Source of the DNA: Comamonadaceae bacterium
Lineage (GTDB): Bacteria > Pseudomonadota > Gammaproteobacteria > Burkholderiales > Burkholderiaceae_C
Direction: 5' to 3'
Length of the DNA: 64,000 nt
Assembly (NCBI GenBank): GCA_027484575.1
Contig: JAIXSQ010000007.1
Location: 248,001-312,000 of the forward strand
Below are positions 12,433 to 48,775 of the stretch, piece by piece. The first letter of the stretch is position 1. The number at the start of each line of letters is the position of its first letter. Position numbers and translations under genes: made by a program. A model generated the notes under the pieces. That model was not told the DNA's origin, did not search any database, and worked only from the letters and a program-made list of their open reading frames with translations.

Positions 12433-12492
12433 GCGCCCGCCGTTCCCGTTCCCCCTTCCCCTTCCCACACCACAACTGCTAGGAGACGCGAC

Positions 12493-13845
12493 ATGACTTT
12501 GAACTTCGGCATCGGCCGCGCCCTGCGCGGCGCCCTGGCCGCCACGGCCGTGGCGGCGACCGCCCTGGTGCCCGCCGTGGCCCAGGCCCAGGCCAAGGAG
12601 CAGTACTTCGGCATCCCCAGCTACCGCGTCGGCCCCTTCGCCGCCGGCGGCACGGGCTTCTTCGGCGGGATCATCGACTACCTCCAGTACGTGAACATGA
12701 AGGAGGGCGGCGTCAACGGCGTGCAGATGACCTGGGCCGAGTGCGAGACCGAGTACAACGCCGCCCGCGGCGTGGAGTGCTACCAGCGCCTGCTCAAGAA
12801 CGCCAAGGGCCAGCAGATGCACATCTTCGAGCCGCTGGCCACGCCCATCGCCTACGGCGTGCTCAACCGCGTCGACGACGACAAGGTGGTGCTGACCCAG
12901 TACGGCTACGGCCGCTCCGACGCCGCCGACGGCCGCGTGTTCCCCTGGGTGTTCTCCACCATGACCAGCTACTGGTCGCAGGCCTCGGCCATCATGAACT
13001 GGGTGGCCCAGAAGGAAGGCGGGCCCGACAAGCTCAAGGGCAAGAAGATCGCCCACCTGCACCTGGACTCGGCCTTCGGCCGCGAGCCGCTGCCAGTGCT
13101 CAACCGCCTGGCCAAGGAGTGGGGCTTCGAGCTGATCTCGATCCCCGTGGCCGCGCCCGGCATCGAGCAGCAGTCGCAGTGGCTGCGCATCCGCCAGGAA
13201 CGCGCCGACTACGTGATCCTGTGGGGCTTCGGCGCGGGCATGAACTCCACCGCCATCACCAACGCCGCGCGCCAGAACTTCCCGCGCGACAAGATGATCG
13301 GCGTGTGGTGGGCCGGCTCCGAGGAGGACGTGATGCCCGCCGGCGACGCCGCCAAGGGCTACATCGCCGCGGCCAACGTGCCCTCGGGCAAGCAGTTCCC
13401 GCTGGTGCAGGACATCGAGAAGGTCGTCTACGGCGGCGGCAAGGGCAACCTGTCGGATCCCAAGCGCATCGGCAACATCTACTGGAACCGTGGCGTGACC
13501 GCCGCGATCTTCTGGGTCGAGGCCGTGCGCAACGGCCAGCGCATCGCCAACAAGGTTGGTCAGCCGCTCAACGGCGAGGAACTGCGTGCCGGCTTCGAGG
13601 CGCTGAACCTCACCCCCGAGCGCCTGAAGACGCTGGGCATCGAGGGCATGCTGCCGTCGTTCCGCCTGTCGTGCAGCGACCACGAGGGCGCCGGCGTGAT
13701 CAAGCTGATCCAGTGGGACGGTGCCAAGTGGAACCTGATCACCCCGACCTGGGTCTCGTCGGACCGCAAGATGATCCGCGAGATGGTCGAGGAGTCGGCC
13801 GCCAAGTACGCGGTCGAGCAGAAGGTCACCCCGCGCAAGTGCTGA
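12493..13845 (+). CDS. Liv-type ABC transporter periplasmic substrate-binding protein
   Basis: A 450-residue type I periplasmic binding protein with a clear signal peptide (residues 1-33, ending AVAQAQA). It is longer than LivK (about 370) and belongs to the larger branch often tied to aromatic or other organic acids. The body has the paired Rossmann-like lobes (ADYVILWGFGAGMNSTAI mid-protein). The only cysteines in the mature part are C86 and C97 (a WAECETE-x-C pair), one near residue 395 and the C-terminal residue. AGGAG 7 bases before ATG 12493 is the strongest ribosome site in the operon, in keeping with the excess needed of a binding protein. The ligand cannot be read from sequence. Confidence 0.88.
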   Translation: MTLNFGIGRALRGALAATAVAATALVPAVAQAQAKEQYFGIPSYRVGPFAAGGTGFFGGIIDYLQYVNMKEGGVNGVQMTWAECETEYNAARGVECYQRLLKNAKGQQMHIFEPLATPIAYGVLNRVDDDKVVLTQYGYGRSDAADGRVFPWVFSTMTSYWSQASAIMNWVAQKEGGPDKLKGKKIAHLHLDSAFGREPLPVLNRLAKEWGFELISIPVAAPGIEQQSQWLRIRQERADYVILWGFGAGMNSTAITNAARQNFPRDKMIGVWWAGSEEDVMPAGDAAKGYIAAANVPSGKQFPLVQDIEKVVYGGGKGNLSDPKRIGNIYWNRGVTAAIFWVEAVRNGQRIANKVGQPLNGEELRAGFEALNLTPERLKTLGIEGMLPSFRLSCSDHEGAGVIKLIQWDGAKWNLITPTWVSSDRKMIREMVEESAAKYAVEQKVTPRKC

Positions 13846-13853
13846 CCCGCGGA

Positions 13854-13879
13854 GGCGGGGCGCCAGCCGGCGCCCCGCC
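13854..13879 (+). terminator. Intercistronic hairpin between binding-protein gene and livF
   Basis: A perfect 11-base stem, GGCGGGGCGCC paired with GGCGCCCCGCC across the loop AGCC, begins 9 bases after the binding-protein stop codon. No T-run follows, so it is more likely an mRNA-stabilising or partial-termination hairpin than a full terminator. It would raise the amount of binding protein relative to LivF. Confidence 0.6.
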
Positions 13880-13909
13880 GTCCACCACCGACAGACCTCC
13901 GGAGTTGCC

Positions 13910-14761
13910 ATGTCTTCCGTGCTCGAAGCCTCCCATGCGTCCAGGCCGGCCTCGCCGGCCGAGGCGCCCATCCTCTCGGTCAAGAACATCGAGGTCATCT
14001 ACGACCACGTGATCCTGGTGCTGCGGGGCGTCTCGCTCGAAGTGCCCAAGGGCCGCATCGTCGCCCTGCTGGGCGGCAACGGCGCCGGCAAGAGCACCAC
14101 GCTCAAGTCGGTGTCCACGCTGCTGGGGGCCGAGCGCGGCGAGGTCACCAAGGGCTCGATCGAGTTCAAGGGCCAGCGCACCGACCAGCTCACGCCCGGC
14201 GACCTGGTGGGCATGGGCATGGTGCAGGTGATGGAAGGCCGGCACTGCTTCGGCCACCTGACGGTCGAGGAGAACCTGCTGACCGGCGCCTACACCCGCA
14301 AGCAGTCGGCCGCGCAGCTGCGCGACTCGCTCGAGCGCGTGTACCACTACTTCCCGCGCCTGAAGGTGCGCCGCGCCAGCCAGTCGGGCTACACCTCGGG
14401 CGGCGAGCAGCAGATGACGGCGATCGGCCGCGCCATGATGGCCAAGCCGCAGATGCTGCTGCTGGACGAACCCTCGATGGGCCTGGCCCCGCAGATCGTG
14501 GCGGAGATCTTCGAGATCGTGAAGGACCTGAACCAGAAGGAAGGCGTGAGCATCCTGCTGGCCGAGCAGAACACGACCGTCGCCCTGCGCTACGCCGACT
14601 ACGGCTACATCCTGGAGAGCGGCCGCATCATGATGGACGGCCCCGCCCGGGCCCTGGCCGAGAACCCCGACGTCAAGGAGTTCTACCTGGGCCTGTCGAC
14701 CGAGGGCCGCAAGAGTTTCCGCGACATGAAGTCCTACCGCCGGCGCAAGCGCTGGCTCTGA
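13910..14761 (+). CDS. livF: Branched-chain amino acid-type ABC transporter ATPase (LivF-like)
   Basis: A 283-residue second ATPase of the importer. Walker A GGNGAGKST lies near residue 62, SGGEQQMTAIGRAMM near 164, Walker B LLLDEPSMGLAPQIV near 182 and AEQNTTVAL near 217. Compared with standard LivF (about 235) it carries about 20 extra N-terminal residues and a basic C-terminal extension (SYRRRKRW). GGAG lies 8 bases before the ATG. It is the last gene of the operon and is followed by a strong terminator. Confidence 0.9.
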   Translation: MSSVLEASHASRPASPAEAPILSVKNIEVIYDHVILVLRGVSLEVPKGRIVALLGGNGAGKSTTLKSVSTLLGAERGEVTKGSIEFKGQRTDQLTPGDLVGMGMVQVMEGRHCFGHLTVEENLLTGAYTRKQSAAQLRDSLERVYHYFPRLKVRRASQSGYTSGGEQQMTAIGRAMMAKPQMLLLDEPSMGLAPQIVAEIFEIVKDLNQKEGVSILLAEQNTTVALRYADYGYILESGRIMMDGPARALAENPDVKEFYLGLSTEGRKSFRDMKSYRRRKRWL

Positions 14762-14826
14762 GGCTCGGGGGAGCCACACACCACATCCGTACCAGTTGTC
14801 TCTTTCGGGGAATCCACCCTGGATTT

Positions 14827-14854
14827 GGGCCGCCCTTGGGCGGCCCCTTTTTTT
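14827..14854 (+). terminator. Rho-independent terminator of the Liv-type operon
   Basis: A perfect 9-base stem GGGCCGCCC / GGGCGGCCC with a TT loop, one C, then seven T. It lies 66 bases after livF and is the clearest terminator in the window. Confidence 0.93.
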
Positions 14855-14940
14855 GGTTCCGATCCCGAAGACGGCGGCTGTCGCTTCGTCACCCCGCGGG
14901 GATCCAGGCCGCCGCGCGCAGCGCGGCATCATCACGGCCG

Positions 14941-16098
14941 ATGTCCCCGCACCCCACCCGCCGCGCCGCCCTCGCCGCCCTCGCGGCCCCGCTGCTGCCC
15001 GCCTGCGCCACCACCCCGCCGCCCGCGGCGGTCGCGGCCGCCGTCGACCGCGCCGTCCGGCCGCTGCTGGCCGAGCACGCCATCCCCGGCCTGGCCGTGG
15101 GCGTGACGCTGGACGGCCGCCGCCACCTCGCCTGCCATGGCGTCACCGCGCCCGGCGGCTGGCGCCCCGTCAGCCCCGCCACCGTCTTCGAGCTCGGCTC
15201 GCTCAGCAAGCCCTGCACCGCCACCCTGCTCGCCTGGGCGCACGTGACGCAGCAGCTGTCGCTCGACGCGCACCCGGGCGAGGTCTTCCCCATCCTGCGC
15301 GGCAGCGCCGTCGACCGCGCCACCCTGCGGCAGTTCGCCACCTACACCGCGGCCGGCCTGCCGCTGCAGGTGCCCGACGGCGTGACCGAGGCGCGCCTGC
15401 TCGACTGGTTGCGTGGCTGGAGCCCGCCGTCCGCGCCGGGCACCGCCCGCCGCTACAGCAACCCCAGCATCGGCCTCGCGGGCCTGGCCGTGGCGCAGCG
15501 CCTGGGACGGCCGTTCCCCGCGCTGCTGCGCGAGGCCGTGCTCGCCCCGCTGGGACTGGCGCACACGCACGTCGACGTGCCCGCCGCAGCGGCCGACGAC
15601 CACGCCTGGGGCACCGGCCCCGCCGGCCAGCGCATCCGCGTGAACCCGGGCGTGCTCGACGTGCAGGCCTACGGCCTGAAGGCCACGCCCGGCGACCTGC
15701 TGCGCTTCGTGGAGGCGCAGCTGCAGCCGCAGGCCCTGCCCGCCCCGCTGGCCGAGGCCATCCGCCTGACGCAGCGCGGCTGGGACCGGGTGGGCGCGAT
15801 GGTGCAGTGCCTGGGCTGGGAAGGCTTCGGGCCGGCCGCGACGCGCGAGGACCTCGTGGCAGCCACCAGCGCGGCCATGGCGCTGGAACCCCACCCCGCC
15901 ACGCCGCTGGCGGCCGACGACCCGGCGGCACGTCCCGCGCTGCTGCACAAGACCGGCTCGACCAACGGCTTCGGCGCGTACGCCATCGCCGTGCCGGGCC
16001 GCCGCGCCGGGCTGGTGCTGCTGGCCAACCGCAACATTCCGAATGCCGCGCGGGTGCAGGCGGCCTGGACGGTGCTGCGCGAGCTCGGCGTGGTCTGA
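14941..16098 (+). CDS. ampC: Class C (AmpC-type) beta-lactamase
   Basis: A 385-residue serine hydrolase with all three class C signatures in place: S87-L-S-K90, Y172-S-N174 and K337-T-G339. Their spacing is that of AmpC, and the collinear AmpC stretch ATYTAAGLPLQVPD (about residues 133-146) is very close to the enteric enzymes. The second motif reads YSN rather than YAN. The N-terminus has a twin-arginine-like start (PTRRAALAALAAPLLPACA), so export by Tat or as a lipoprotein is possible. It would hydrolyse cephalosporins and penicillins in the periplasm. No ampR is adjacent, and the gene follows the Liv terminator on its own, so expression is probably constitutive or low. Activity is inferred. 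Confidence 0.88.
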   Translation: MSPHPTRRAALAALAAPLLPACATTPPPAAVAAAVDRAVRPLLAEHAIPGLAVGVTLDGRRHLACHGVTAPGGWRPVSPATVFELGSLSKPCTATLLAWAHVTQQLSLDAHPGEVFPILRGSAVDRATLRQFATYTAAGLPLQVPDGVTEARLLDWLRGWSPPSAPGTARRYSNPSIGLAGLAVAQRLGRPFPALLREAVLAPLGLAHTHVDVPAAAADDHAWGTGPAGQRIRVNPGVLDVQAYGLKATPGDLLRFVEAQLQPQALPAPLAEAIRLTQRGWDRVGAMVQCLGWEGFGPAATREDLVAATSAAMALEPHPATPLAADDPAARPALLHKTGSTNGFGAYAIAVPGRRAGLVLLANRNIPNAARVQAAWTVLRELGVV

Positions 16099-16134
16099 AC
16101 GTCGTGCCGGGTCGCCGGGCGCGATGCGGGCGGC

Positions 16135-16830
16135 TCAGGCGCGCGGCGGGTGGGCGTGGCCGTCGTGCACCGCGGAGCCGTGCCCGCCAGGCGCCCCGTG
16201 GCCGGCGTGCCCGTGGCGCAGCTCGCTGCGCGCATGCCGCAGCACGCTCACGCTGCCCTGCAACGCCAGCGCGCCCATCACCGCGGCCACCGCCAGGTCG
16301 GGCCAGGCGCTGCCGGTGCCGAACACGCCGGCCGCCGCGCCCAGCACCGCCAGGTTACCCAGCGCATCGTTGCGCGAGCAGATCCAGGCCGAGCGCATGT
16401 TGGCGTCGCCGTCACGGAAGCGCAGCAGCAGCAGCGCCACGCCCGCGTTGACCGCCAGCGCGGCCAGGCCGACCGCGCCCATGGTCAGCGGCTCGGGCGT
16501 GCCGCCGCGGCTGAAGGTCCAGGCGGCATGGGCGAGCACGCCGAGGCCGAAGGCGCCCATCGTGGCCGCCTTGGCCAGCGCCGCCCGCGCCCGCGTGGCG
16601 GCCGACAGGCCCAGCACCGCCAGGCTCAGCGCGTAGTTGGCCGCGTCGCCGAAGAAGTCGATCGCATCGGCCAGCAGCGCCACCGAGCCCGACGACCACG
16701 AGGCGCCGGTCTCGACCGCGAACATGCCGGCGTTGAACGCCAGCGCGATCCACAGCGCGCGCCGCCAGCGCGGGTCGGTGGCGGCGACGGTGGGGGTGTG
16801 GGAGCAGCAACGGGAGGACATGCCGGCCAT
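16135..16830 (-). CDS. Cation diffusion facilitator-type metal transporter
   Basis: A 231-residue membrane protein with six predicted helices. The metal site of helix 2 appears as LLADAIDFFGDAANY (about residues 52-66), with aspartates spaced as in CDF transporters. Helix 5 has CSRNDALGNLAVL (about 149-161). It has a short Cys-Cys-His N-terminus (SSRCCSHTP) and a His-rich tail (HGHAGHGAPGGHGSAVHDGHAHPP), typical metal-collecting ends. It lacks the long cytoplasmic domain of ZitB/CzcD. It should export Zn, Co, Cd or Ni from the cytoplasm. It lies upstream of the VOC gene on the same strand. ATG 16830 or the fourth codon ATG may be the start. Confidence 0.8.
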   Translation of the reverse strand: MAGMSSRCCSHTPTVAATDPRWRRALWIALAFNAGMFAVETGASWSSGSVALLADAIDFFGDAANYALSLAVLGLSAATRARAALAKAATMGAFGLGVLAHAAWTFSRGGTPEPLTMGAVGLAALAVNAGVALLLLRFRDGDANMRSAWICSRNDALGNLAVLGAAAGVFGTGSAWPDLAVAAVMGALALQGSVSVLRHARSELRHGHAGHGAPGGHGSAVHDGHAHPPRA

Positions 16831-16884
16831 TGGAAACCCTGGAGCGGGTCCGGGGTCAAGGGGTGCGGGCCGCCGCGTCCGGCC

Positions 16885-17307
16885 TCAGGCAGCGGACGGC
16901 AGGTCCGGGTTGAACGCCACCTCCCACAGGTGCCCGTCCAGGTCCTGGAAGTAGCCGGCCCAGCCGCCCCAGAACGCCCGCTGCGCCGGCTTGACGATGC
17001 GGGCGCCCGCGCGCTGCGCCTGCGCCAGCACCGACTCGACCTCGGCGGGCGAGCCCACGTTGTGCGCCAGGCACACGCCGGTGGTGCTGGTGGGCTGCAC
17101 CGGCAAGCCGGTGTCGGCGGCGAGGCTGGTGCGCGGCCACAGCGCGAGTTTCAGTCCGCCGGCCAGCTCGAAGAAGGCCACCGCGCCGATGGCGAACTCG
17201 GCGCCCATCACGCCCTCGGTGGGCCAGCGCAACCCGTCGCGGTAGAAGGCCAGGGCGCGGTCGAGGTCGTCGACGGCGAGGGTGATCAGGCTGACGTGCG
17301 GCTGCAT
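16885..17307 (-). CDS. VOC/glyoxalase superfamily protein
   Basis: A 140-residue single vicinal-oxygen-chelate domain with two beta-alpha-beta-beta-beta modules. The first is VSLITLAVDDLDRALAFYRDGL at residues 5-26, and the C-terminal part is YFQDLDGHLWEVAFNPD, with the usual D-x-x-G-x-x-x-E ending. ATG 17307 is chosen because the domain begins immediately. No partner gene points to a substrate, so it may be a glyoxalase, dioxygenase or binding protein. Members of this exact type (lactoylglutathione-lyase-like, fused to nothing) are common in Burkholderiales. Confidence 0.75.
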   Translation of the reverse strand: MQPHVSLITLAVDDLDRALAFYRDGLRWPTEGVMGAEFAIGAVAFFELAGGLKLALWPRTSLAADTGLPVQPTSTTGVCLAHNVGSPAEVESVLAQAQRAGARIVKPAQRAFWGGWAGYFQDLDGHLWEVAFNPDLPSAA

Positions 17308-17423
17308 GGGAGACAGGTTACGCCCGCGTGCCGCCCGCTGGGAAGCGGGGCCGGCGAGCGCGGCGCGGCCGCCGGCGAGCCACAGCTGCATGTCTGCCTG
17401 CAGCGGCCCGCGGTGCCGGGTCT

Positions 17424-17894
17424 TCAGCGGTATTTCGCGGCCGTGATGAACTGGCCGAACGTCTCGCACCACACGATCACGGTCGTGTAGCGTGACGGGT
17501 CCACCGACGCCGGCAGGGGCAGCAGGAAGTTGTGGAACGTCTTGACGTCACCCACGCGAGCCATCGCTGGCTTGAGTCGGGCGAAGTCGGCCTCGGTCTC
17601 GACGAATTCGGGGGACAGGTAGAGCTTGTAGTCCGGGCCGGGCGCCAGTCGGCCCTGGAAGGCGACGAAGCCAGTCCCGATGGACACCGTGCCCTCGCCC
17701 CAATGCAGGGCGTCACTGTCTTTCAGGTCTCGATGGAAGCGCCCCTGGTAGCGAGCCGCCTGCGCCTGGCCGGCAACCTCGGCGTCCCCGGGGGCCTCGG
17801 GAGCGATGAGGATGGGAAACGCGTAGACCCCGAGCGCGAAGCCGGCGGCGGCCACCAGCAGGTGGGAGGCAGACAGGAGCAGCGTCTTCTTCAT
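17424..17894 (-). CDS. Membrane-anchored DM13 domain protein
   Basis: A 156-residue protein with an N-terminal signal or anchor (residues 1-29, KKTLLLSASHLLVAAAGFALGVYAF). A DM13-type domain follows: GRFHRDLKDSDALHWGEGTVSI (about 51-72), then DYKLYLSPE and FHNFLLPLPASVDPSRYTTVIVWCETFGQFITAAK. The final W-C and F-x-x-F-x-x-A residues match the family, proposed to bind a haem or redox partner. It is an exported protein of unknown role and stands alone. Confidence 0.75.
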   Translation of the reverse strand: MKKTLLLSASHLLVAAAGFALGVYAFPILIAPEAPGDAEVAGQAQAARYQGRFHRDLKDSDALHWGEGTVSIGTGFVAFQGRLAPGPDYKLYLSPEFVETEADFARLKPAMARVGDVKTFHNFLLPLPASVDPSRYTTVIVWCETFGQFITAAKYR

Positions 17895-18096
17895 GGGTCG
17901 GCAGCAACGGGGTCGGTCGGCAGGGGCGGCAAGGGTCACGGACGCAGGGGTCGGCAGCTGCGGTGCCCACGGCGCTCGCATCGGCACCCAAGTGCACGGG
18001 CGCATTCTGGCCTCTCGCCGCCTCGTTGGCGCGGGCACCACTGCACCCCGGGTCCAACGGCCCAGGCCGCGTTCCAGGGGCGTTCACAGCCCGGCG

Positions 18097-18179
18097 GCGC
18101 CCGCAACAGCCCCCGCGCTCACCCCTAGACCGCGACCTCCAGCCAGTCCTGCACCGCGAACTCGCGGTCGACGGCGACC
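18097..18179. repeat. 83-base direct repeat, left copy
   Basis: Matches 21054-21136 with about seven mismatches (over 90 percent identity). The right copy is the 3' end of the 217-residue membrane-anchored protein gene plus its downstream flank. The two copies are in the same orientation, 2957 bases apart, and enclose the lower-GC cassette island. Confidence 0.85.
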
Positions 18180-18211
18180 AGCCGGGCCGGCGGCGCGCTG
18201 GTAGGGGTCAC
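18125..18211 (-). pseudogene. Remnant of the C-terminus of a paralogue of the 21076-21729 gene
   Basis: Read on the minus strand, this stretch encodes PARLVAVDREFAVQDWLEVAV followed by a TAG stop. The intact gene at 21076 ends KPVAIDREFAVQYWLEVAVQR. Only about 20 residues are shared, and upstream of them the sequence diverges at once, so this is a truncated copy rather than a gene. It is part of the left direct repeat. Confidence 0.7.
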
Positions 18212-18215
18212 CCGC

Positions 18216-18479
18216 TCAGAGGCCCCGCTCGACCTCGCGCTGGATGGCGTTGACCAGGCGGGCCAGTTCGGGCTCGTGCCCGTGCATGTCGAACTCGCGC
18301 GTGGCGATCAGGCCCATGCTGAAGGGACCCGGAGCGGGCTCGACCGGCTCGCCGCGCACGAACGCCAGGCACCAGCGCAGCTGGCGCAGGATCGAGATGG
18401 CCGGCTCCCAGCCCTGCTGCGCCAGTGGTTCGACCTGCGCGATCGCGTCGGCGATGCGCTCGGCCAGCGGCGACGGCAT
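18216..18479 (-). CDS. Small hypothetical protein
   Basis: An 87-residue soluble protein of unknown family, with an N-terminal helical part (LAERIADAIAQVEPLAQQGWEPAI) and a C-terminal helix (EPELARLVNAIQREVERGL). It starts 10 bases after the stop of the membrane protein gene on the same strand, so the two are likely cotranscribed. Codon use is as GC-rich as the chromosome, unlike the cassette genes upstream. No Shine-Dalgarno of note. Confidence 0.55.
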   Translation of the reverse strand: MPSPLAERIADAIAQVEPLAQQGWEPAISILRQLRWCLAFVRGEPVEPAPGPFSMGLIATREFDMHGHEPELARLVNAIQREVERGL

Positions 18480-18489
18480 GGCAGCCCGC

Positions 18490-18768
18490 TCAGCCGTCGA
18501 CCGGCTGCACGTCGAACTCGATCCCGCCCACGTGCGGCGCCATCGCGTTGTAGACGGCGCAGCCCACGACCACCATCACGTAGCCGAGCACGAGATAGAT
18601 GAGCGGCACGCTCAGCATGAACAGCAGCGGCGGCGCCGCGCCGTCAGGTGCCGCCATCAAGGCCACCAGCATGAACGGCACGACGAAGACCAGGGCACCG
18701 ACGGCCATCAGGATGGCGGCCACCTTGCCGTTCTGGTGGGGCGAGAACCGGGCGATCCGTTGCTTCAT
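18490..18768 (-). CDS. Small two-helix membrane protein, unknown
   Basis: A 92-residue protein with two strong hydrophobic segments, VAAILMAVGALVFVVPFMLVAL (about residues 16-37) and PLIYLVLGYVMVVVGCAVYNAM (about 55-76). The ends are basic and then acidic, giving both termini a likely cytoplasmic location. ATG 18768 is chosen because it begins the basic N-terminus. No family recognised. Confidence 0.6.
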   Translation of the reverse strand: MKQRIARFSPHQNGKVAAILMAVGALVFVVPFMLVALMAAPDGAAPPLLFMLSVPLIYLVLGYVMVVVGCAVYNAMAPHVGGIEFDVQPVDG

Positions 18769-18970
18769 GCGGGGGCGCCTCCCTGCGCCCGTGGGTGGGG
18801 TGGGACTCGGTGGCGAGGGCTGCGGATCGTTCGAATCGACACGATCGTCGTGCGCAGTGGATCCGCAGCTTGCTCGTCGAGCATCGTCGATGGCTCTTTC
18901 GTTCTGCGCTCGAACGTAAAGGTGATCGGCGATGCGGCGAGGGGCCACGAGGTGGCGGGTGTCCCGCGGC

Positions 18971-19019
18971 GTCTAGCGGCACCTTCCCGCAACTTATCCG
19001 AGTCGGCCAAACTGTTAGC
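18971..19019 (-). repeat. Partial attC-like site at the end of the cassette row
   Basis: On the minus strand it begins GCTAACAG, overlapping the TAA stop of the HEPN-type gene, and continues GGCCGACTCGGA, resembling the first half of the attC at 19753 (GTTCGACTCGGACACG). The second half with a matching GTTAG core is not found (only GCTAGAC at 18971), so the site looks truncated or degenerate. Confidence 0.4.
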
Positions 19020-19737
19020 GGGCGACATTCGGATGGTTCCAGAAACCGCTTGAGGCATTTGACAGTTGTGCGTCCAAGGAATCCCAAGCGAAGCCTGCGT
19101 TTCTGACAATGAGACCCAAGAGTTCAACGAGCCGTTGCATGATTTCCATGTTCCGACGCACGTCGCCCCACTTGATCCCGAGCTTGCCGATGTCCACAAG
19201 TTGGTACTTATCTGCGACGAATCTCACCTCCGTGTGCGCAGAAACTTTGTCCCGCACGGTGAGGAATGCATGCATTGAAGGAGAACCAGCTAGGTTCTTC
19301 CACAACTCCTGCAACTCCGCATAGTGATCGCGGAATTGCTCTCGCCTCTCCAGGCGCTCCCGTTCTTCCATCCGCTTCAGCGCAGCGACTATGTCCGGGT
19401 CCTCCTGTTGGTCCGCAGAGGGGATGACCCAGATGGCGTATCGGTCCTCCAGTTCCCGCCGCATGGCGGGGTCATCTAGTGCGCCAACCAAGTTGCGAAT
19501 GCTCGGCGTGCGCTTGTCACCGTCTAGGCTCAGCTTTGCGATGTCCTGCACGCAGGAAAGAAAAAGCGTGTTCTTCAGGATCTGGAAGCCCCGCACCTGA
19601 TGCTCTGAGCCTCGCGCCGCAACTGTTTCACGGTTGAACAGCATCGGTTCCAAAAGGGCGTACTTTTCTCGCAACCCGATGAAGGCATCAAGAAGGTGAC
19701 TGGCGTGGGCTTCTAGTTTTTCAACTTGGGAAGGCAT
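19015..19737 (-). CDS. Cassette-borne HEPN-type (AbiU2-like) protein
   Basis: A 240-residue, mostly helical, charged protein with codon use much less GC-rich than the chromosome. Near the C-terminus it has R162-D-K-V-S-A-H168, matching the R-x4-6-H active motif of HEPN ribonucleases in the setting VRDKVSAHTEV. A hydrophobic helix FQILKNTLFLSCVQDIAKLSLD (51-72) and the following TPSIRNLVGAL resemble the AbiU2-type HEPN family. Such proteins can act as abortive-infection or toxin RNases. ATG 19737 sits 16 bases inside the preceding attC boundary, as expected for a gene cassette, and its TAA stop overlaps the next attC core. Family placement is by pattern; no antitoxin partner is visible. Confidence 0.65.
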   Translation of the reverse strand: MPSQVEKLEAHASHLLDAFIGLREKYALLEPMLFNRETVAARGSEHQVRGFQILKNTLFLSCVQDIAKLSLDGDKRTPSIRNLVGALDDPAMRRELEDRYAIWVIPSADQQEDPDIVAALKRMEERERLERREQFRDHYAELQELWKNLAGSPSMHAFLTVRDKVSAHTEVRFVADKYQLVDIGKLGIKWGDVRRNMEIMQRLVELLGLIVRNAGFAWDSLDAQLSNASSGFWNHPNVAR

Positions 19738-19752
19738 CGCTCGATCTTGCCC

Positions 19753-19866
19753 GCTAACGTCGAATTTGACCGGCGCTAACCAGTAGCTCGCCGGAAGGTG
19801 CACAAACACCTGGACGCCTGGAGGCGCAATGCCGGTTCGTGTCCGAGTCGAACGCCCCGTTAGAGC
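19753..19866 (-). repeat. attC recombination site of an integron gene cassette
   Basis: A 114-base imperfect palindrome directly after the stop codon of the 163-residue cassette gene. Read on the minus strand it opens GCTCTAACG...GTTCGACTCGGACACG and closes GCCGGTCAAATTCGACGTTAGC. The end cores are thus TAAC and GTTA, with complementary inner boxes, as attC sites require. Outer sequence is close to the attC at 20394. Confidence 0.75.
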
Positions 19867-20358
19867 TCACTGCTCGGAAGTTCCCTTCTTGGCGAAACGC
19901 CGGATCACTGCCTCGATGATCTTGGCCTCGATCTCAGTGAACTGAACTTCCTCACCCTCTTTGGTACGGCGAAGTTTGCTGCGGAGCCTTAGCAGGAGAT
20001 ACGACAGATACCCTGTACCCACCGCGGCTCCGCCCACCGCAATGGGCACGCCGATCGGGGTGGCCGGAAGGATACCCGCCGACATTAAGAAGCCAGTAAA
20101 GCCACTGGCACCGATGGTCGTCCCGAAGATGCCCGCGCTTCCGATGATTGCGGCAGTCGCTCCCGTGAGGGTCAGCGTCCCGGCGCCAAGCAGCGCGCCA
20201 GCGCCAGTAAGTAGAGAAGCTATAGCAGCCGTGCTCAGATATGTGCCCGCGACATAGCCGCTTGCACCCATCGTGACGATTACGCCGCCGGCGGCGTGCG
20301 GCACAAGACTACCCCCAGCGGCTAGTGCAGCGATAACTGGAACGAGTGGAAGCGGCAT
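19867..20358 (-). CDS. Cassette-borne glycine-zipper membrane protein
   Basis: A 163-residue protein. Residues 1-115 are almost all Gly, Ala, Thr, Ile and Val, with many small-x3-small repeats (GGVIVTMGASGYVAGT, LLTGAGALLGAGTLTLTG, GIFGTTIGASGFTGF) characteristic of glycine-zipper membrane or pore-forming proteins. A basic stretch (RLRSKLRRTKEGE) and a charged helical C-terminus (EIEAKIIEAVIRRFAKK) follow. It looks like a bundle of short helices entering a membrane. The start has GAGG 7 bases upstream and lies 36 bases from the attC at 20394; its stop abuts the next attC. It is lower GC than the chromosome. Function unknown; a pore, toxin or phage-defence effector is possible but unproven. 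Confidence 0.65.
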   Translation of the reverse strand: MPLPLVPVIAALAAGGSLVPHAAGGVIVTMGASGYVAGTYLSTAAIASLLTGAGALLGAGTLTLTGATAAIIGSAGIFGTTIGASGFTGFLMSAGILPATPIGVPIAVGGAAVGTGYLSYLLLRLRSKLRRTKEGEEVQFTEIEAKIIEAVIRRFAKKGTSEQ

Positions 20359-20393
20359 GACGACCTCGGATAAAACACAGGCGTGAGGTGAGC

Positions 20394-20505
20394 TCTAACG
20401 TCGGAGTTGACCGGCACGCAGCGGCATTGCGCTGCGAAGCGCACGCTCACGAGCACGATTCGCGGCGCAATGCTGCTGCGTGTCCCCGTCGAACGACCTG
20501 TTAGA
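20394..20505 (-). repeat. attC recombination site, best example
   Basis: A 112-base near-palindrome. The ends are TCTAACG at 20394 and GTTAGA at 20500-20505. The arms pair almost fully: TCTAACGTCGGAGTTGACCGG... on one side, against the reverse complement of the other side TCTAACAGGTCGTTCGACGGG..., then CACGCAGCGGCATTGCGC against CACGCAGCAGCATTGCGC. The extra unpaired bases are as in attC bulges. The TAA stop of the gene on its right lies inside the site. Confidence 0.85.
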
Positions 20506-20831
20506 CCGCTGCATCCACGTTCCTCTTCCTCTGCAGTGCTTCCCGTACCAGCAACACAGTTAAGACCTGCAGAAGCACAGTGAGCCAAGCTCCGACGAGA
20601 TAAGCGGAATCGACGCCCGCAGCACTGACTGCAGCCATTCCCCCGACCCACGCGAGCCCCAGGAAGGGGAGGGTCACGAGCACGCCAAAACCCTGCCAGA
20701 GGTCCGCCCAGCAAATTTGTCAGCGGAAAGATTGCTGAGTAGACCACTGCCATTAACAACTGCTGGCGAGTTAAGGAGAAAGCGGCTCTCCTTTGTGGTC
20801 TAACGTAATGTAGGCAGAGCCCGCAGAACAC
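20501..20831 (-). pseudogene. Cassette-borne small membrane protein, apparently frameshifted
   Basis: Two adjacent frames on the minus strand read as one four-helix membrane protein. The upstream frame is VFCGLCLHYV and LLMAVVYSAIFPLTNLLGG. The downstream frame is GVLVTLPFLGLAWVGGM and YLVGAWLTVLLQVLTVLLV, ending RKRNVDAAV at a TAA inside the attC. Removing one base from the run of four A/T at 20687-20690 joins them into about 110 residues from GTG 20831. A 7-base inverted repeat (AAGGAGA/TCTCCTT at 20773-20793) lies within the 5' part. Alternatively only the last 60 residues (GTG 20683) are translated. A sequencing error cannot be ruled out. Confidence 0.45.
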
Positions 20832-21053
20832 AACGACCGCAACTTCCGGATAACACCGGCCCGGACTTCGCCCCAAGTCCTTGTCGCACTGGCATGTTCC
20901 CGTGTCCTCCCTCCCCGAGCAGGTCGCCGTTTCCGCGACCTCGATCCCGGCAGCGGTGCCGCCAGCGCCTTCGACCTTCAGTCTGCCACCGCCGGCCTGC
21001 GCCACCCCCGGCGCCCTGCGCCGGCTCTCCCCAAAGTCCCATCTGCCTGCGGC

Positions 21054-21136
21054 GCGCCCGCAACAGCCCGCACGCTCACCGCTGGACCGCGACCTCCAGC
21101 CAGTACTGCACCGCGAACTCGCGGTCGATGGCGACC
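21054..21136. repeat. 83-base direct repeat, right copy
   Basis: Partner of 18097-18179. This copy holds the last 19 or so codons of the intact 217-residue protein gene and 22 bases beyond its stop. The 200 bases to the left of it (20850-21053) are GC-rich, contain no supported gene and mark the edge of the low-GC island. Confidence 0.85.
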
Positions 21137-21729
21137 GGCTTGCCCTGGGCCACGATGCGCGTGCCGGTGGGCAGCACGCCCAGGCTCTTGCGGGCCTGGA
21201 AGTACGCGACGTCGTTGGCCGGCAGGCCATCGCGCAGCACCATGTTGGCCGAGACGGTGAAGCTCGACCCCGGCGTGATGCTGTCGGGGCCCTGGGCCGG
21301 CGGCGCGTTCGTGGCGGTCGACACGAGCTTGATGCGCGTCCAGGCCTTCTGCTTCCTGTCGTAGTCGCCGATCCACAGGTAGCCCTTCTGCGCCTGCACG
21401 GCCTCGACCGAGGCCAGCTGCGCGGTCTGGGTCGACACGGTCTGGCTCGCCTCGAAGATGTCCGACCGCGCCACGTCGGTCAGGGCCTTCTCGGGCGTCT
21501 GCTTCTTCAGTTCGTCCATCGCCTTGGCCAGCGCATTGACCTGCGCCGACAGCGAGGCGATCTCGCCCTTGGCGTCCTGCGTGAACTTGACGCCGTCCCT
21601 GGTGATCTCCGACAGCGCGCCGAACGGCACGCCCAGGATGAACTTGGCGCCGACCAGCGCGATGAAGATCGACAGGACGGCCAGGGGGTACTTCCAGAGC
21701 TCGATGACAGGGTGTGCGCTGTCGGCCAT
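21076..21729 (-). CDS. Membrane-anchored coiled-coil protein, unknown
   Basis: A 217-residue protein with one N-terminal transmembrane helix (YPLAVLSIFIALVGAKFILG, about residues 14-33). A helical heptad-rich stretch follows (GEIASLSAQVNALAKAMDELKKQ, about 58-80), then a beta-rich C-terminal domain (KGYLWIGDYDRKQKAW onwards) ending in LPTGTRIVAQGKPV and the repeat-encoded tail. The arrangement suggests a periplasmic domain held by a single helix and a coiled coil. GGGAGG 8 bases upstream of ATG 21729 fixes the start. No family recognised. A truncated copy of its end lies at 18125. Confidence 0.65.
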   Translation of the reverse strand: MADSAHPVIELWKYPLAVLSIFIALVGAKFILGVPFGALSEITRDGVKFTQDAKGEIASLSAQVNALAKAMDELKKQTPEKALTDVARSDIFEASQTVSTQTAQLASVEAVQAQKGYLWIGDYDRKQKAWTRIKLVSTATNAPPAQGPDSITPGSSFTVSANMVLRDGLPANDVAYFQARKSLGVLPTGTRIVAQGKPVAIDREFAVQYWLEVAVQR

Positions 21730-21895
21730 GTGATGCCCTCCCGGTACCGCGACCTGGGGTGCGGCCTCGCATCCCGGGGTACCGCGCGCCCAGTCTGCAG
21801 CGGGCGCGGGCGGCCGGCCATCCGGGTCGTCCCGCTCGGCCGGAAGGCAGAGCCGGTGCTGCGCGCCAGGCCGGCGGGCCGGGCGCGGGCACCGC

Positions 21896-22324
21896 TCAGG
21901 AGTGCACGCCCCGCCGCTGGCGCGCGCCGCGGCCCTGCGCCTGCAGCCCCTGCAGGATGCCGCAGGCCGCATCCGCCCCGTCGCCCGCGCAGGCCGCGCG
22001 CAAGGCCCGCAGGTCCTTCTCCAGCGCCTTCAGGTCCCGCACCCGCTGCGCCACGTGCGCGATGTGCGCATCCAGCACCGCGTTCACCTCGCCGCAGTCG
22101 GCCTGCGGCGCGTCCCGGTGCCGCAGCAGCAGGCGGATCTCGTCCAGCGACATGTCCAGGCCGCGGCAGGCGCGGATGAACTGCAGGCGCTGCAGGTGCG
22201 CCGCGTCGTAGTCGCGGTAGTTGGCCGCCGTGCGCGCGGGCGGGGGCAGCAGGCCCTCGCGCTCGTAGTGCCGGATGGTGTCCACCGCCGTCGCGCTGGC
22301 GGTCGCGAGTTCGCCGATCTTCAT
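21896..22324 (-). CDS. cadR: MerR family Cd(II)/Pb(II)-type responsive regulator
   Basis: A 142-residue MerR protein with an N-terminal winged helix (MKIGELATASATAVDTIRHY; EREGLLPPP), a dimerisation helix, and a metal site with C77, C112 and C121. This spacing matches PbrR/CadR proteins, which bind Pb(II), Cd(II) or Zn(II). ATG 22324 begins the domain; an ATG three codons earlier is also possible. It is divergent from arsR, with 60 bases between. It could control its own gene or a metal gene elsewhere. No classic 19-20 base MerR-spaced promoter was recognised in the gap, so the target is uncertain, and the CadR label is by cysteine pattern only. Confidence 0.8.
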   Translation of the reverse strand: MKIGELATASATAVDTIRHYEREGLLPPPARTAANYRDYDAAHLQRLQFIRACRGLDMSLDEIRLLLRHRDAPQADCGEVNAVLDAHIAHVAQRVRDLKALEKDLRALRAACAGDGADAACGILQGLQAQGRGARQRRGVHS

Positions 22325-22348
22325 GCCGGCCATTCTGCGCCCGGTGGC

Positions 22349-22378
22349 TTGACGTCGATTCGTTATTTCATGGATACT
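22349..22378 (+). promoter_or_regulatory. Promoter candidate of the ars operon
   Basis: TTGACG at 22349-22354 and GATACT at 22373-22378 are 18 bases apart. Transcription would begin at or within a base or two of the arsR ATG at 22385, so the message may be leaderless. TCATGGA occurs twice around the start (22368 and 22383) as a short direct repeat that ArsR could use. Confidence 0.5.
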
Positions 22379-22384
22379 TGAATC

Positions 22385-22720
22385 ATGGAAGAAAGCGATG
22401 TCGTCCGCGCCCTGGCGGCGCTGGCCCAACCGGTGCGGCTGCAGCTGTTCCGCGCGCTGGTGGTCACCGGCCCACAGGGCCTGACGCCCGGCACCATGGC
22501 CGAGGGGCTGGGCATCTCGCCCAGCGCGCTGTCGTTCCACCTCAAGGAACTGCTCCACGCCGGCCTCGTCACGCAGGAGCGCGCCAGCCGCCACCTGATC
22601 TACCGCGCCGCGTTCGGCCGCATGAACGACGTGCTGGGCTTCCTGACCGACAACTGCTGCCAGGGCGCCGACTGCGCGGCCACGGCCCCCGCCGCCGCGC
22701 AGGCCTGCACGGACTGCTGA
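22385..22720 (+). CDS. arsR: ArsR family arsenic-responsive repressor
   Basis: A 111-residue winged-helix repressor. Helix-turn-helix is GISPSALSFHLKELLHAGLV (about residues 41-60), then ASRHLIYRAAF. The usual ELCVCDL metal site of classical ArsR is absent. Instead the C-terminus has DNCCQGADC and a final C-T-D-C, giving five cysteines (about residues 89-111), the arrangement of the Corynebacterium/Acidithiobacillus-type ArsR with a C-terminal As(III) site. It should repress the six-gene operon it heads and release DNA on binding As(III) or Sb(III). Confidence 0.88.
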   Translation: MEESDVVRALAALAQPVRLQLFRALVVTGPQGLTPGTMAEGLGISPSALSFHLKELLHAGLVTQERASRHLIYRAAFGRMNDVLGFLTDNCCQGADCAATAPAAAQACTDC

Positions 22721-22752
22721 GCCCCACCCCCACCACCCCACCGGAGAGCCCC

Positions 22753-23265
22753 ATGAAGCGCTTCCACGTCCACGCCCACGTCGCCGACCTGCCGGCGAGC
22801 ATCGCCTTCTACAGCCGCCTGTTCGGCGCCGCGCCCACGCGCGTCGAGGCCGACTACGCCAAGTGGATGCTCGAGGACCCGCGCCTGAACTTCGCGATCT
22901 CCGCCCGCGGGGGCGAGCCCGGCATCGACCACCTGGGCTTCCAGGCCGACACCGACGAGGAACTGGCCGAGCTCAAGGCCCGCGCGCAGGCGGCCGACAC
23001 GCCCATCCTCGAGGAAGGCACCACCACCTGCTGCTACGCCCGCAGCGACAAGCACTGGGTGACCGACCCGCAGGGCATCGCCTGGGAGCAGTACCGCACG
23101 CTGGGCGACATCCCGGTGTTCCGCCAGACGGCGCCGGCCGCCGCCCAGGCCGCGGCGCAGCCCGGGGCCGACGCCGCGTCGTCCACCGCAGCCGCCGCCT
23201 GCTGCGCCCCGCGCGGCAAGCCGGTGGGCGTGGCCGTGCGCGCCGCCGGCAGCAGCTGCTGCTGA
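22753..23265 (+). CDS. arsI: ArsI-type C-As lyase / CadI-like VOC dioxygenase
   Basis: A 170-residue VOC protein closely following ArsI: HVHAHVADLPASIAFYSRLFG at the N-terminus, YAKWMLEDPRLNFAIS (about residues 35-50), GIDHLGFQ (57-64) and a Cys pair C93-C94 (TTCCYA). Iron ligands H5, H60 and E112 fit the known H/H/E set. ArsI cleaves the carbon-arsenic bond of trivalent methyl- or aryl-arsenicals using O2 and Fe(II). The Cys pair binds the organoarsenical, and CadI proteins share the fold. The C-terminal 45 residues add an Ala-rich linker with two further Cys pairs (AACCAP, SSCC). GGAGAG lies upstream of the ATG. Second gene of the operon. Confidence 0.85.
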   Translation: MKRFHVHAHVADLPASIAFYSRLFGAAPTRVEADYAKWMLEDPRLNFAISARGGEPGIDHLGFQADTDEELAELKARAQAADTPILEEGTTTCCYARSDKHWVTDPQGIAWEQYRTLGDIPVFRQTAPAAAQAAAQPGADAASSTAAAACCAPRGKPVGVAVRAAGSSCC

Positions 23266-23275
23266 GGGGCCGGCC

Positions 23276-23770
23276 ATGGACCGTTCCCCGTACCAGGTGC
23301 TGTTCGTCTGCACCGGCAACTCGGCCCGCTCCATCCTGGCCGAGGCGCTGATGAACGCCATGGGCGGCGGGCGCTTCCGCGCCTGGTCGGCCGGCAGCCA
23401 TCCCAAGGGCCAGGTGCATCCGCTGGCGCTGGACGAACTGCGGCAGCTGCAGGTGCCCGCCGACGGTGCGCGCAGCAAGAGCTGGGAAGAGTTCGCCGCG
23501 TCCGGGGCGCCGGTGCTGGACTTCGTCTTCACCGTCTGCGACCAGGCCGCCGGCGAGATCTGCCCGGTCTGGCCCGGCCAGCCGCTCAGCGCGCACTGGG
23601 GCATGCCGGACCCGGCCGCCGTCGAGGGCACCGAGGCCGAGCGCCGCCGCGCCTTCCGCGACGCGGCGGTGCTGCTCAAGCGCCGCATCGACCTGCTGCT
23701 GTCCCTGCCCGTCGAGCGCCTCGACCGGCTCTCCCTGCAACGCGACCTGCAAGCGATCGGCACCCGATGA
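23276..23770 (+). CDS. arsC: Arsenate reductase, thioredoxin-type (LMW-PTP fold), copy 1
   Basis: A 164-residue protein with the P-loop C12-T-G-N-S-A-R18 (C-x5-R), SAGSHPKGQVHP and a C-terminal half with FTVCDQAAGEICPVWPG, which supplies the resolving cysteines near 83 and 90, as in thioredoxin-linked ArsC. It reduces As(V) to As(III) in the cytoplasm. The start is 10 bases after arsI. Its stop overlaps the next ATG (ATGA), giving translational coupling to the second arsC. Confidence 0.88.
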   Translation: MDRSPYQVLFVCTGNSARSILAEALMNAMGGGRFRAWSAGSHPKGQVHPLALDELRQLQVPADGARSKSWEEFAASGAPVLDFVFTVCDQAAGEICPVWPGQPLSAHWGMPDPAAVEGTEAERRRAFRDAAVLLKRRIDLLLSLPVERLDRLSLQRDLQAIGTR

Positions 23771-24255
23771 CCTCGCACATCCTCATCCTCTGCACCCACA
23801 ACTCGGCCCGCAGCGTGCTGGCCGAATGCATGCTCAACCACTGGGCCCGGCGCCTGGGCCGCAACGTGCAGGCGCACAGCGCCGGCAGCACGCCCAGCGG
23901 CCGCATCAACCCGCATGCGCTGCAGGCGCTGGCCGAGGCCGGCGTGTCCACCGAGGGCGTGCACAGCAAGAGCTGGGATGCCTTCGCCGCCCCCGGCGCG
24001 CCGGCGATGCGGGCGGTGATCACGGTGTGCGACAGCGCCGCCGCCGAGACCTGCCCGTACTGGCCGGGCAGCCCGGTGCGGGTGCACTGGGGCTACCCCG
24101 ACCCGTCCAACGCGCCCGAGGCCGACAAGCCGCGCGCCTTCGAGCTCACCCGCCAGGCCATCGGCTACCGCATGCTGCAGCTGCTGCAGCTGCCGCTCGA
24201 GACGCTGGACGACCGCGCGCTGCAGGCTGCGCTCACCGCCATCGGGCGCAGCTGA
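23767..24255 (+). CDS. arsC: Arsenate reductase, LMW-PTP fold, copy 2
   Basis: A 162-residue paralogue with C9-T-H-N-S-A-R15 at the P-loop and FITVCDSAAAETCPYWPG-like resolving cysteines (AVITVCDSA, ETCPYWPG). It is about 40 percent similar to copy 1 by eye, so an old duplication or separate origin is likely. It is coupled to copy 1 by the ATGA overlap and followed one base later by the aquaporin. Two different ArsC proteins in one operon may differ in reductant or metalloid preference (not testable here). Confidence 0.87.
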   Translation: MTSHILILCTHNSARSVLAECMLNHWARRLGRNVQAHSAGSTPSGRINPHALQALAEAGVSTEGVHSKSWDAFAAPGAPAMRAVITVCDSAAAETCPYWPGSPVRVHWGYPDPSNAPEADKPRAFELTRQAIGYRMLQLLQLPLETLDDRALQAALTAIGRS

Positions 24256-24256
24256 G

Positions 24257-24976
24257 ATGGCGGCCGCCACCCCGCAGGAGCTGCCCCGCCGCCTGCTCGC
24301 GGAAGCGCTGGGCACCGCCCTGCTGCTGGCCGTGGTGATCGGCTCGGGAATCATGGCCGAGCGCCTGTCGGCCGGGAACGCCGGCGTGGCCCTGCTGGCC
24401 AACACGCTGGCCACGGTCGGCGGGCTGGTGGTGCTGATCGAGCTGTTCGGCCCGGTCAGCGGCGCGCACTTCAATCCCGCCGTCAGCGCGGTGATGGCCT
24501 GGCGGCGCGAGCTGCCCGCCGGCTGGCTGCTGCCCTACGTGGCCGCGCAGTTGGCCGGTGCCCTGGCCGGCGCGGCGCTGGCCAACGCGATGTTCGAGCT
24601 GCCGGTGCTGCACCTGGCCACCAAGCTGCGCGGCGGCGGCGGCCAGTGGCTGGCCGAGGCGGTGGCCACCTGCGGCCTGCTGCTGGTGGTGCTGCGGGCG
24701 CCGGCCTCGCGGGTGGCGGCGCTGGTGGCGGCCTACATCGGCGCGGCCTACTGGTTCACCGCGTCCACCTCGTTCGCCAACCCGGCGGCCGCCTTCGGCC
24801 GCATGTGGTCCGACAGCTTCGCCGGGATCGCGCCGGCCAGCGTGCCGGGCTTCGTCGCCGCGCAGGCCGCGGGCGCGGTGCTGGGCGTGGTGCTGCACCG
24901 GCTGCTCGGGGCCCGCGGCGACGCGGCCAGCCTGCAGGAGACCGGCAGCCACCCCGGCGTGGCCGACCCGCGCTGA
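24257..24976 (+). CDS. aqpS: Aquaglyceroporin-family channel (AqpS-like)
   Basis: A 239-residue MIP-family protein with six helices and two half-helices. The NPA motifs are HFNPAVSAV (about residues 72-80) and FANPAAAFGR (about 172-181); the arginine after the second is the selectivity-filter residue. In Sinorhizobium meliloti an AqpS channel replaces the efflux pump and lets As(III) made by ArsC leave down its gradient, and the gene order here (arsR, arsC, aqpS) fits that model. The start ATG 24257 is one base after the arsC stop (TGAG-ATG), so it is translationally coupled. Confidence 0.85.
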   Translation: MAAATPQELPRRLLAEALGTALLLAVVIGSGIMAERLSAGNAGVALLANTLATVGGLVVLIELFGPVSGAHFNPAVSAVMAWRRELPAGWLLPYVAAQLAGALAGAALANAMFELPVLHLATKLRGGGGQWLAEAVATCGLLLVVLRAPASRVAALVAAYIGAAYWFTASTSFANPAAAFGRMWSDSFAGIAPASVPGFVAAQAAGAVLGVVLHRLLGARGDAASLQETGSHPGVADPR

Positions 24977-25009
24977 GGCACGCACCGCGGGCAAGGTACA
25001 AACGGGCCC

Positions 25010-26197
25010 ATGCCCGCCCCCGGCACCCGCCTCGTCCTCGCCCTGGGCAGCGCCCAGCTGCTGGCCTGGGGCTCCACCTACTACCTGCCCGCGATCCTGG
25101 CCGTGCCCATGGCCCGCGAGCTGGGCCTGGCGCCGTCGGCGCCGTTCGCGGCCTTCTCGCTGGCCCTCCTGGTCGCCGCGCTGGTGGGCCCGCAGGCCGG
25201 CCGCGCCATCGACCGGCATGGCGGCCGGCCGGTGCTGGCGGCCACCAGCGTCGTGTTCGCGCTGGGGCTGGTGCTGCTGGGCACGGCCCACGGGCCGCTG
25301 CAGCTGGCGCTGGCCTGGGCCGTGATCGGCGCCGGCATGGGCACCGGCCTGTACGAAGGCGCCTTCGCGGCGCTGGTGCGGCTGCAGGGCAGCGACGCGC
25401 GGCGCGCCATCACCGGCGTCACGCTGCTGGGCGGGCTGGCCAGCACGGTGGGCTGGCCGCTGTCGACCTGGCTGGAGCTGCAGGTGGGCTGGCGGGGCGC
25501 CTGCCTGGCCTGGGCCGCGATCCACCTGGCAGTGGCGCTGCCGCTGAACTTGTCGCTGCCGCGCGCGCTGCCGCAGGCCCCGCCGGCCGCCGCACCGGTG
25601 GCGGCCGCGCACGGCGAAGGCCGCGCGCCCTGGCTGCCCAGCGCCCTGCTCGCCTTCGTGTTCGCGGCCACCTGGTTCATCAGCACCGCCATGGCGGCGC
25701 ACCTGCCGCGGCTGCTGCAGGCGGTGGGCGCGACGCTGGCCGCCGCGGTAGCGGTGGGCATGCTGGTGGGGCCCGCGCAGGTCGCGGCCCGGATCGCCGA
25801 GTACGGCCTGCTGCGGCGCGTGCATCCGCTGCTGTCGGCGCGGCTGGCGGCGGCGCTGCACCCGCTGGCGGTGGTGGTGCTGCTGCTGGCCGGGCCGCCC
25901 GCCGCCCTCGCGTTCGGGCTGCTGCACGGCGCGGGCAACGGCATCCTCACCATCGCCAAGGGCACGCTGCCGCTGGTGCTGTTCGGCGCCGGTGGCTACG
26001 GCCACCGGCAGGGGCTGCTGATGGTGCCCGCGCGGCTGGCGCAGGCGCTGGCCCCGTGGGCCTTCGGGCTGGCACTGGACCGCTGGGGCGCGGGCGCGCT
26101 GTGGCTGTCGGCCGGCGTGAGCGCCGCGGCGCTGTGCGCGCTGCTGGCCCTGCGGCCGGCGGGCGCGGCGCCGGCCCCGGCCACCGCCGCGCCCTGA
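25010..26197 (+). CDS. MFS transporter at the end of the ars operon
   Basis: A 395-residue major facilitator protein with 12 hydrophobic segments. It has LLAWGSTYYLPAILA in helix 1, the A-like motif GPQAGRAIDRHGGRPVL between helices 2 and 3 (about residues 63-79), a central hydrophilic loop and a C-terminal bundle. Family members next to ars genes include ArsK, ArsJ and ArsP-like exporters, but the residues that would tell them apart were not recognised. It may export As(III), Sb(III) or an organoarsenical. It lies 33 bases after aqpS. Its 3' end is 6 bases from the convergent gamma-glutamyltransferase gene. Confidence 0.75.
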   Translation: MPAPGTRLVLALGSAQLLAWGSTYYLPAILAVPMARELGLAPSAPFAAFSLALLVAALVGPQAGRAIDRHGGRPVLAATSVVFALGLVLLGTAHGPLQLALAWAVIGAGMGTGLYEGAFAALVRLQGSDARRAITGVTLLGGLASTVGWPLSTWLELQVGWRGACLAWAAIHLAVALPLNLSLPRALPQAPPAAAPVAAAHGEGRAPWLPSALLAFVFAATWFISTAMAAHLPRLLQAVGATLAAAVAVGMLVGPAQVAARIAEYGLLRRVHPLLSARLAAALHPLAVVVLLLAGPPAALAFGLLHGAGNGILTIAKGTLPLVLFGAGGYGHRQGLLMVPARLAQALAPWAFGLALDRWGAGALWLSAGVSAAALCALLALRPAGAAPAPATAAP

Positions 26198-26203
26198 GCG
26201 GGC

Positions 26204-27814: not shown

Positions 27815-27830
27815 GGTGGTTCTCCGGGGC

Positions 27831-27906: not shown

Positions 27907-27965
27907 GGTCAATGGGTCTCGAGGATGGCGGGCTCAGGGTCGCGGGATGAACGACGGCAGGTGCC

Positions 27966-48700: not shown

Positions 48701-48775
48701 CCGCCCCCGGGTGTCCGCCATGGTGGCGGGCAGGCAAGCGCGCAGGTCGGGCCGCCTCGCGGGATCCGCCACGCC

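Follow-up and report, generated by a model that had tools for sequence, protein, structure and literature searches.

An attI-headed cassette row without an adjoining integrase gene in a Comamonadaceae genome: a candidate satellite integron array

The window, i.e., the whole stretch of 64,000 nucleotides which was analysed, contains a short row of gene cassettes on the minus strand. Read in this direction, an attI-type leader is followed by cassette 1 with attC1, cassette 2 with attC2 and cassette 3 with attC3. The features of the row and of its immediate flanks are as follows (R1 and R2 denote the attC and attI models described below, D1 a direct repeat):

20798 to 20956 (about), minus strand: attI-type head; recombination core GTTAGAC at 20804-20798, R2 match at 20858-20798
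20800 to 20895, minus strand: candidate attI leader reading frame, 31 codons, ATG start preceded by a purine-rich stretch; its stop is the TAG within the GTTAG core
20400 to 20797, minus strand: cassette 1; candidate reading frame at 20501-20683, 60 aa, GTG start, stop within attC1
20393 to 20506, minus strand: attC1; R1 106.8 bits, genome-wide E 1.2e-26, intact hairpin
19867 to 20358, minus strand: cassette 2 gene; 163 aa, glycine-rich, a membrane protein by eye
19752 to 19865, minus strand: attC2; R1 49.1 bits, genome-wide E 8.8e-10, R and L boxes kept, inner arms diverged
19015 to 19737, minus strand: cassette 3 gene; 240 aa, AbiU2-type HEPN protein, stop within attC3
18909 to 19020, minus strand: attC3; R1 37.1 bits, genome-wide E 2.7e-6, model positions 1-114, right core altered (GTTCGAG)
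21054 to 21157, plus strand: copy of D1 at the end of gene 21076-21732; 86% identity, 104 bases
18097 to 18200, plus strand: copy of D1 on the other flank of the row; 86% identity, 104 bases

The GC content of the row is 0.57-0.64 as compared to 0.66-0.80 in the rest of positions 12000-28000, which bears out the original prediction that the genes of the row are lower in GC than their surroundings. The same prediction had labelled the row a CALIN, i.e., a row of attC sites without an integrase. Formally the label fits. Three neighbouring attC sites, where two suffice, are located within 1.6 kb; tblastn detects no IntI likeness adjoining the row, and the sole above-cut-off intI of the genome is situated on contig C12. 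The row does not constitute a complete integron, in which intI adjoins attI. Yet the label misses the attI-type head, the completeness of attC3, the intI elsewhere in the genome and the recurrence of this layout throughout the genus.

A crude palindrome finder reported nothing in Markov-shuffled sequence (5 x 64 kb), and of the three window sites only attC1. Since attC2, attC3 and the attC on C12 escaped it, the covariance model R1 was built; its 18 training sites follow intI genes in seven other genomes of the genus, and none is from the own genome. In the own 4.4-Mb genome, where 150 of 12,882 first-look candidates were scored, R1 identified the three attC sites of the window and one on contig C12; up to E<=5 nothing further emerged except reverse-strand images of attC1 and of the C12 site. 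A model derived from other species thus recognizes both long palindromes as attC sites, as had been proposed. The third site had been considered partial; it is of full length. Rfam contains no attC match for the window.

In the attC consensus of the genus the R and L boxes are kept, the stems covary, and three single unpaired bases are present in the L'' arm against L'. Such extrahelical bases are a requirement of attC sites. The suggested check of single-strand folding had a divided outcome. The fold of attC1 is strong (z -5.9 for the bottom, -5.0 for the top strand). That of attC2 is weak (z -0.5 for the bottom strand, equalled by 62 of 200 shuffles; z -1.0 for the top strand, 36 of 200) because the inner arms have diverged. 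With 84% identity attC1 resembles a stretch of an Acidovorax plasmid; this is the only plasmid record with a match, at attC1 and not in the rest of the row, and among phage records the row has no match. On the Acidovorax plasmid pACDW039_1 a TIR-domain gene is directly preceded by an attC of this family (L009 11990-12102; R1 101.3 bits).

The head of the row was examined with R2, a sequence-only attI model generated from 12 other intI-linked attIs. R2 scores the window head with 26.1 bits (whole-genome E 3.5e-5) and the attI on C12 with 37.3 bits; in the window and locus L007 no further match is observed up to E<=5. A pairwise alignment demonstrates that the window head resembles the C12 attI out to about -150 from the core, and the head is in register with the attIs at about -75, -50 and -15 relative to the core. 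When 1.5-kb upstream stretches were compared by blastn (E<=1e-3), L148 alone, out of all attIs in the comparison, matched the window leader. Because of its likeness to the intI-linked attIs of the genus and of cassettes downstream in the right direction, the head is classified by sequence as a putative attI.

Class 1 integrons possess a small attI-borne reading frame, ORF-11. Among 53 attIs (window and sister loci) the leader frame which ends in the core TAG runs without a stop for at least 30 codons in 47, the other frames in 15 and 21, respectively. Codon-position entropy does not differ between positions. A leader reading frame which may be translated is possible; coding constraint is supported by frame openness and not by entropy.

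Cassette 3 encodes an AbiU2-type HEPN protein. It matches the AbiU2 family PF18734 over its length (E 7.7e-31, 107.5 bits against a cut-off of 26.8) and has an R-x5-H motif, in which R162 and H168 are invariant across 14 aligned sequences. With a score above the Pfam cut-off and an R-x4-6-H motif it belongs to the AbiU2 HEPN proteins. It differs from the family in that it stands alone in its cassette. HEPN proteins which keep the motif are predicted metal-independent RNases (PMC3710099). No PADLOC model matches cassette 3 at E<=0.01, and a sequence search of the PDB yielded one insignificant match (E 0.19). More generally, PADLOC returned nothing for five proteins, and no NCBIfam model came near its cut-off for six. 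The cassette 2 protein has no Pfam match and 690 homologues at E<=1e-3, of which the best 120 were viewed; 14 were aligned. The reading frame of cassette 1 is uncertain because it has no homologue at E<=0.01.

R1 was further applied to six loci of other genera which carry cassette homologues, and four of the six match at E<=1e-5. An AbiU2 homologue is positioned between two attC sites in L142, and in L136, L137 and L139 R1 matches are located around or beside cassette-2 homologues. L141 has no R1 match, and L138 reaches 13.5 bits only.

The two D1 copies flank the row like an insertion mark. As a general mark this was rejected: a flanking repeat of at least 60 bases is present in 2 of 23 rows tested, i.e., the window and L155. 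Gene 21076-21732 on one flank has no match in 40 other genomes searched; on the other side, gene 17424-17894 has a homologue in 22 of 60 genomes of the genus, own genome included. In G079 such a homologue is no more than about 7 kb away from an intI-less row (L179 3112-3582 and 7466-10231). A shared chromosomal place was considered, but the intervening genes differ and the attI scores 15.4 bits only; the vicinity is therefore treated as possible chance. Elsewhere in the window, an nhaA-I riboswitch is located at 48709-48759 on the plus strand (49.4 bits, gathering score 37), the sole gathering-level Rfam match. At 21896-24976 a MerR-type regulator adjoins genes which by eye resemble an arsenic resistance set, i.e., ArsR, two ArsC-like proteins and a MIP channel; of these names only MerR is from Pfam.

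It had been stated that no intI was seen in the window, and this remains correct. The recommended search elsewhere in the genome revealed one intI, on contig C12 (C12:89979-90923; TIGR02249, 430.7 bits, cut-off 265), with one in-frame TAG. Five weaker TIGR02249 matches in the genome are all under the cut-off. In the translated gene the stop precedes the motifs HTLRHSFATHLL, GHSDVS and TTMIYTH of the conserved HTLRH...TTMIYTH block. We take these motifs to carry catalytic residues including the nucleophilic tyrosine. Since the stop lies before this conserved C-terminal block, we predict that the C12 integrase has no activity, provided that the stop does not result from a sequencing error. An attI and one cassette with attC adjoin this intI; the window row has no cassette in common with the C12 locus.

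The analysis was extended to 60 genomes of the genus, most likely Ramlibacter (Comamonadaceae). An intI match over the cut-off is contained in 33 genomes and an attC match at E<=1e-4 in 43. R2 produced 59 hits of at least 20 bits, all of which were classed. Twenty-eight of them, window included, head a right-direction attC row without intI in the fetched stretch; these are distributed over 22 genomes. Twenty adjoin intI (12 of these had served to train R2). Two have attC sites and an IntI which is reduced to an N-terminal stub, 38 or 48 residues long (L161, L175). Six are at contig ends and cannot be classed (G074, G018 C156, G073, G068, G023 C4 and C6), and three (of 53 judgeable hits) have neither attC nor intI (L150, L159, L196). 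The weakest attC support among the 28 rows is that of L195 (22.4 bits). Four further loci of the same layout, L165, L179, L182 and L198, score below 20 bits with R2 and were left out of the 28.

Fifteen of the 22 genomes with intI-less rows possess an intI over the cut-off elsewhere; among these it is interrupted in G000 and matched only in part in G071 and G021. The remaining seven have no intI match at E<=1e-23. An intI-less row and intI are separated by about 474 kb in G007 and by >1 Mb in G082 (one contig each), and by 220 kb in G062. The one-contig genome G081, with a listed completeness of 100%, carries two attI-headed rows and lacks intI. Beyond intI in G034 the flank (L031 3592-5877) has 90% identity to that of the G069 locus with the IntI stub (L175 82-2364). 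By sequence this indicates that the G069 stub locus and the uninterrupted integron of G034 occupy the same chromosomal place, with intI whole in one and a stub in the other.

The search was also carried beyond the genus. At E<=1e-3 R2 detects attI-like sites in 34 of 200 genomes of the family (at least 90% completeness, own genome counted). From nine family genomes with two or three R2 hits 19 loci were fetched, and 13 of these have an R1 match at E<=0.01. Eight of the 13 are without IntI (tblastn, E<=0.01), i.e., L202, L205, L209, L210, L211, L212, L213 and L220. N-terminal IntI stretches of 27-33 residues adjoin attI in L203, L217 and L218; longer IntI stretches are present in L207, L208, L215 and L219.

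Are the intI-less attIs related to the integrase of their own genome? Likeness was tested with 18 intI-less attIs for which an intI-linked attI is available in the same genome. Sixteen are from the 28 rows; L159 (no attC) and L182 (<20 bits) were added, and L177 was excluded, as its core escaped recognition by the script. In 9 of 18 cases the satellite attI is nearest to the intI-linked attI of its own genome (best of 22), with a mean percentile of 0.86; none of 20,000 label permutations reaches the observed value. The window itself does not show this pattern, its attI being merely rank 6 of 22 against the C12 attI of its own genome. Segment by segment, satellite and intI-linked attIs are about equally conserved.

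The cassettes add to this. Six of 44 within-genome pairs of loci have DNA in common which is at least 90% identical over 250 bases or more, as compared to 1 of 1,786 between-genome pairs, the sole one being the flanking DNA of L031 and L175. Four of the six within-genome pairs combine an intI-linked row with a satellite and are attC-bounded (one in G033, one in G021, two in G020). The fifth, in G026, involves a row which reaches the contig end and shows no attI (L181); the sixth, L174/L175, is not attC-bounded. In G033 the cassette right behind a satellite attI corresponds core to core to an internal cassette of the intI-linked row, with 93% identity over 377 bases. Taken together, the likeness of the attIs and the common cassettes favour the view that cassettes may dock at satellite attIs by the action of one enzyme. 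The common cassettes can, instead, be copies made by homologous recombination, and nearness of attIs inside one genome is equally expected from common descent of a duplicated head, for which no activity is needed.

How is the window row to be understood? Three attC sites are aligned behind an attI-type head, no intI adjoins them, a stop-bearing intI is located on another contig, and the build is recurrent in the genus. The reading which we prefer, with moderate confidence, is that of a satellite integron array behind a sequence which matches the attI of the genus, likely filled in trans by an integrase whose gene is elsewhere in the genome. Cassettes would dock at the satellite attI, would be transcribed from a promoter within the attI leader, and would be traded with the intI-linked row via the common integrase. 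In this particular genome the traffic has probably stopped and the row is frozen, since the integrase is interrupted, attC2 is without a hairpin and the right core of attC3 is changed; attI and attC1 still match their models. The array may have originated when an integron head was copied or when an integron lost its intI; several sister loci retain merely an N-terminal IntI stub beside attI (L161, L175, L203, L217, L218). Against trans service of the window row itself stand the sixth rank of its attI, the lack of a cassette in common with C12 and a leader which by blastn matches only L148.

Several of these observations can be turned around. The row may be the dead remnant of a second integron minus its intI, and the intI-less rows of the genus decaying relics on which no enzyme acts in trans. 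The lack of intI beside the row and its interruption on C12, the decay of attC2 and attC3, the IntI stubs next to some attIs and the seven genomes which have such rows and no intI match all agree with this, as does the proposal that CALINs are degraded integrons (PMC9024848). Against it, satellite attIs are conserved segment by segment like intI-linked ones and track the attI of their own genome, near-identical cassettes are present in intI-linked and intI-less rows, and 15 of the 22 genomes possess an intI above cut-off elsewhere. On balance we consider the remnant doubtful, albeit a serious contender.

It is improbable that the cassettes were inserted singly by IntI at a secondary site, attG, and that the attI-like head is a chance resemblance. 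Insertion at attG sites has been described (PMC12444791), and R2 scores the window head moderately, much of the score being due, as judged by eye, to the core. A chance resemblance is difficult to reconcile with a head in register at three positions and alignable with the C12 attI far beyond the core; in addition, R2 does not match the attC sites in fetched arrays, and merely the three judgeable hits mentioned above lack both attC and intI. Finally, that the palindromes are terminators or other inverted repeats, which as a matter of general knowledge do occur at gene ends for other causes, is hardly credible in view of the R1 scores and their rarity in the genome, the kept R and L boxes with covarying stems, and the attC-like sites which adjoin homologues of cassettes 2 and 3 in other genera; we take it as refuted for attC1, and for attC2 and attC3 the decision rests on the model scores.

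How does a satellite array compare with known systems? A CALIN is defined as an attC cluster without integrase (PMC9024848). The window row shares with it at least two attC sites in a row and an integrase which is not adjoining; unlike a CALIN it retains an attI-type head. According to the available text of the same source IntegronFinder 2 seeks attI only in class 1 integrons, so that attI heads of other rows would go unseen. With a sedentary chromosomal integron the row has in common an attI, a row of similar attC sites and cassettes of unknown or defence-like function; it differs in that its intI is unlinked, on another contig and interrupted. About 50% of Xanthomonas genomes have CALINs outside the ilvD locus, and a functional IntI is able to mobilize CALINs in trans (PMC12444791). 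The Xanthomonas CALINs are likewise extra attC rows away from intI, yet the available part of that report mentions no attI head. In mobile integrons a truncated attI has been found within unusual cassettes (PMC12901181).

A precedent in print is the Shewanella prophage M16-3, which carries a complete integron and a CALIN, each starting with an attI of the same type (PMC9892861, section 3.3 of the available text). An attI-headed CALIN is thus on record. There it concerns one prophage, here a chromosomal layout which recurs in 22 genomes of a genus and in which there is evidence of cassette sharing between rows. A literature search, with subscription papers mostly outside its scope, retrieved no genus-wide account of attI-headed integrase-less rows, and no paper on integron, attC and Ramlibacter together. 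What would be new, then, is the genus-wide occurrence of such rows, with M16-3 as the one printed precedent found.

One may go a step further and ask whether Ramlibacter and sister genera operate a distributed integron in which one integrase serves several attI docking sites round the chromosome, the window being a stranded outpost. This we put forward tentatively, as a proposal which could well turn out to be wrong. If true, several cassettes at once would be in the first, expressed position. Independently, genomes with an intact integrase, with stubs and with none form a natural series within the genus, along which it is possible to trace how attI and attC decay once the integrase is lost. 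If many CALINs own an attI, cassettes may still dock at rows without integrase, and a single integrase may have several first-position slots at its disposal in one genome.
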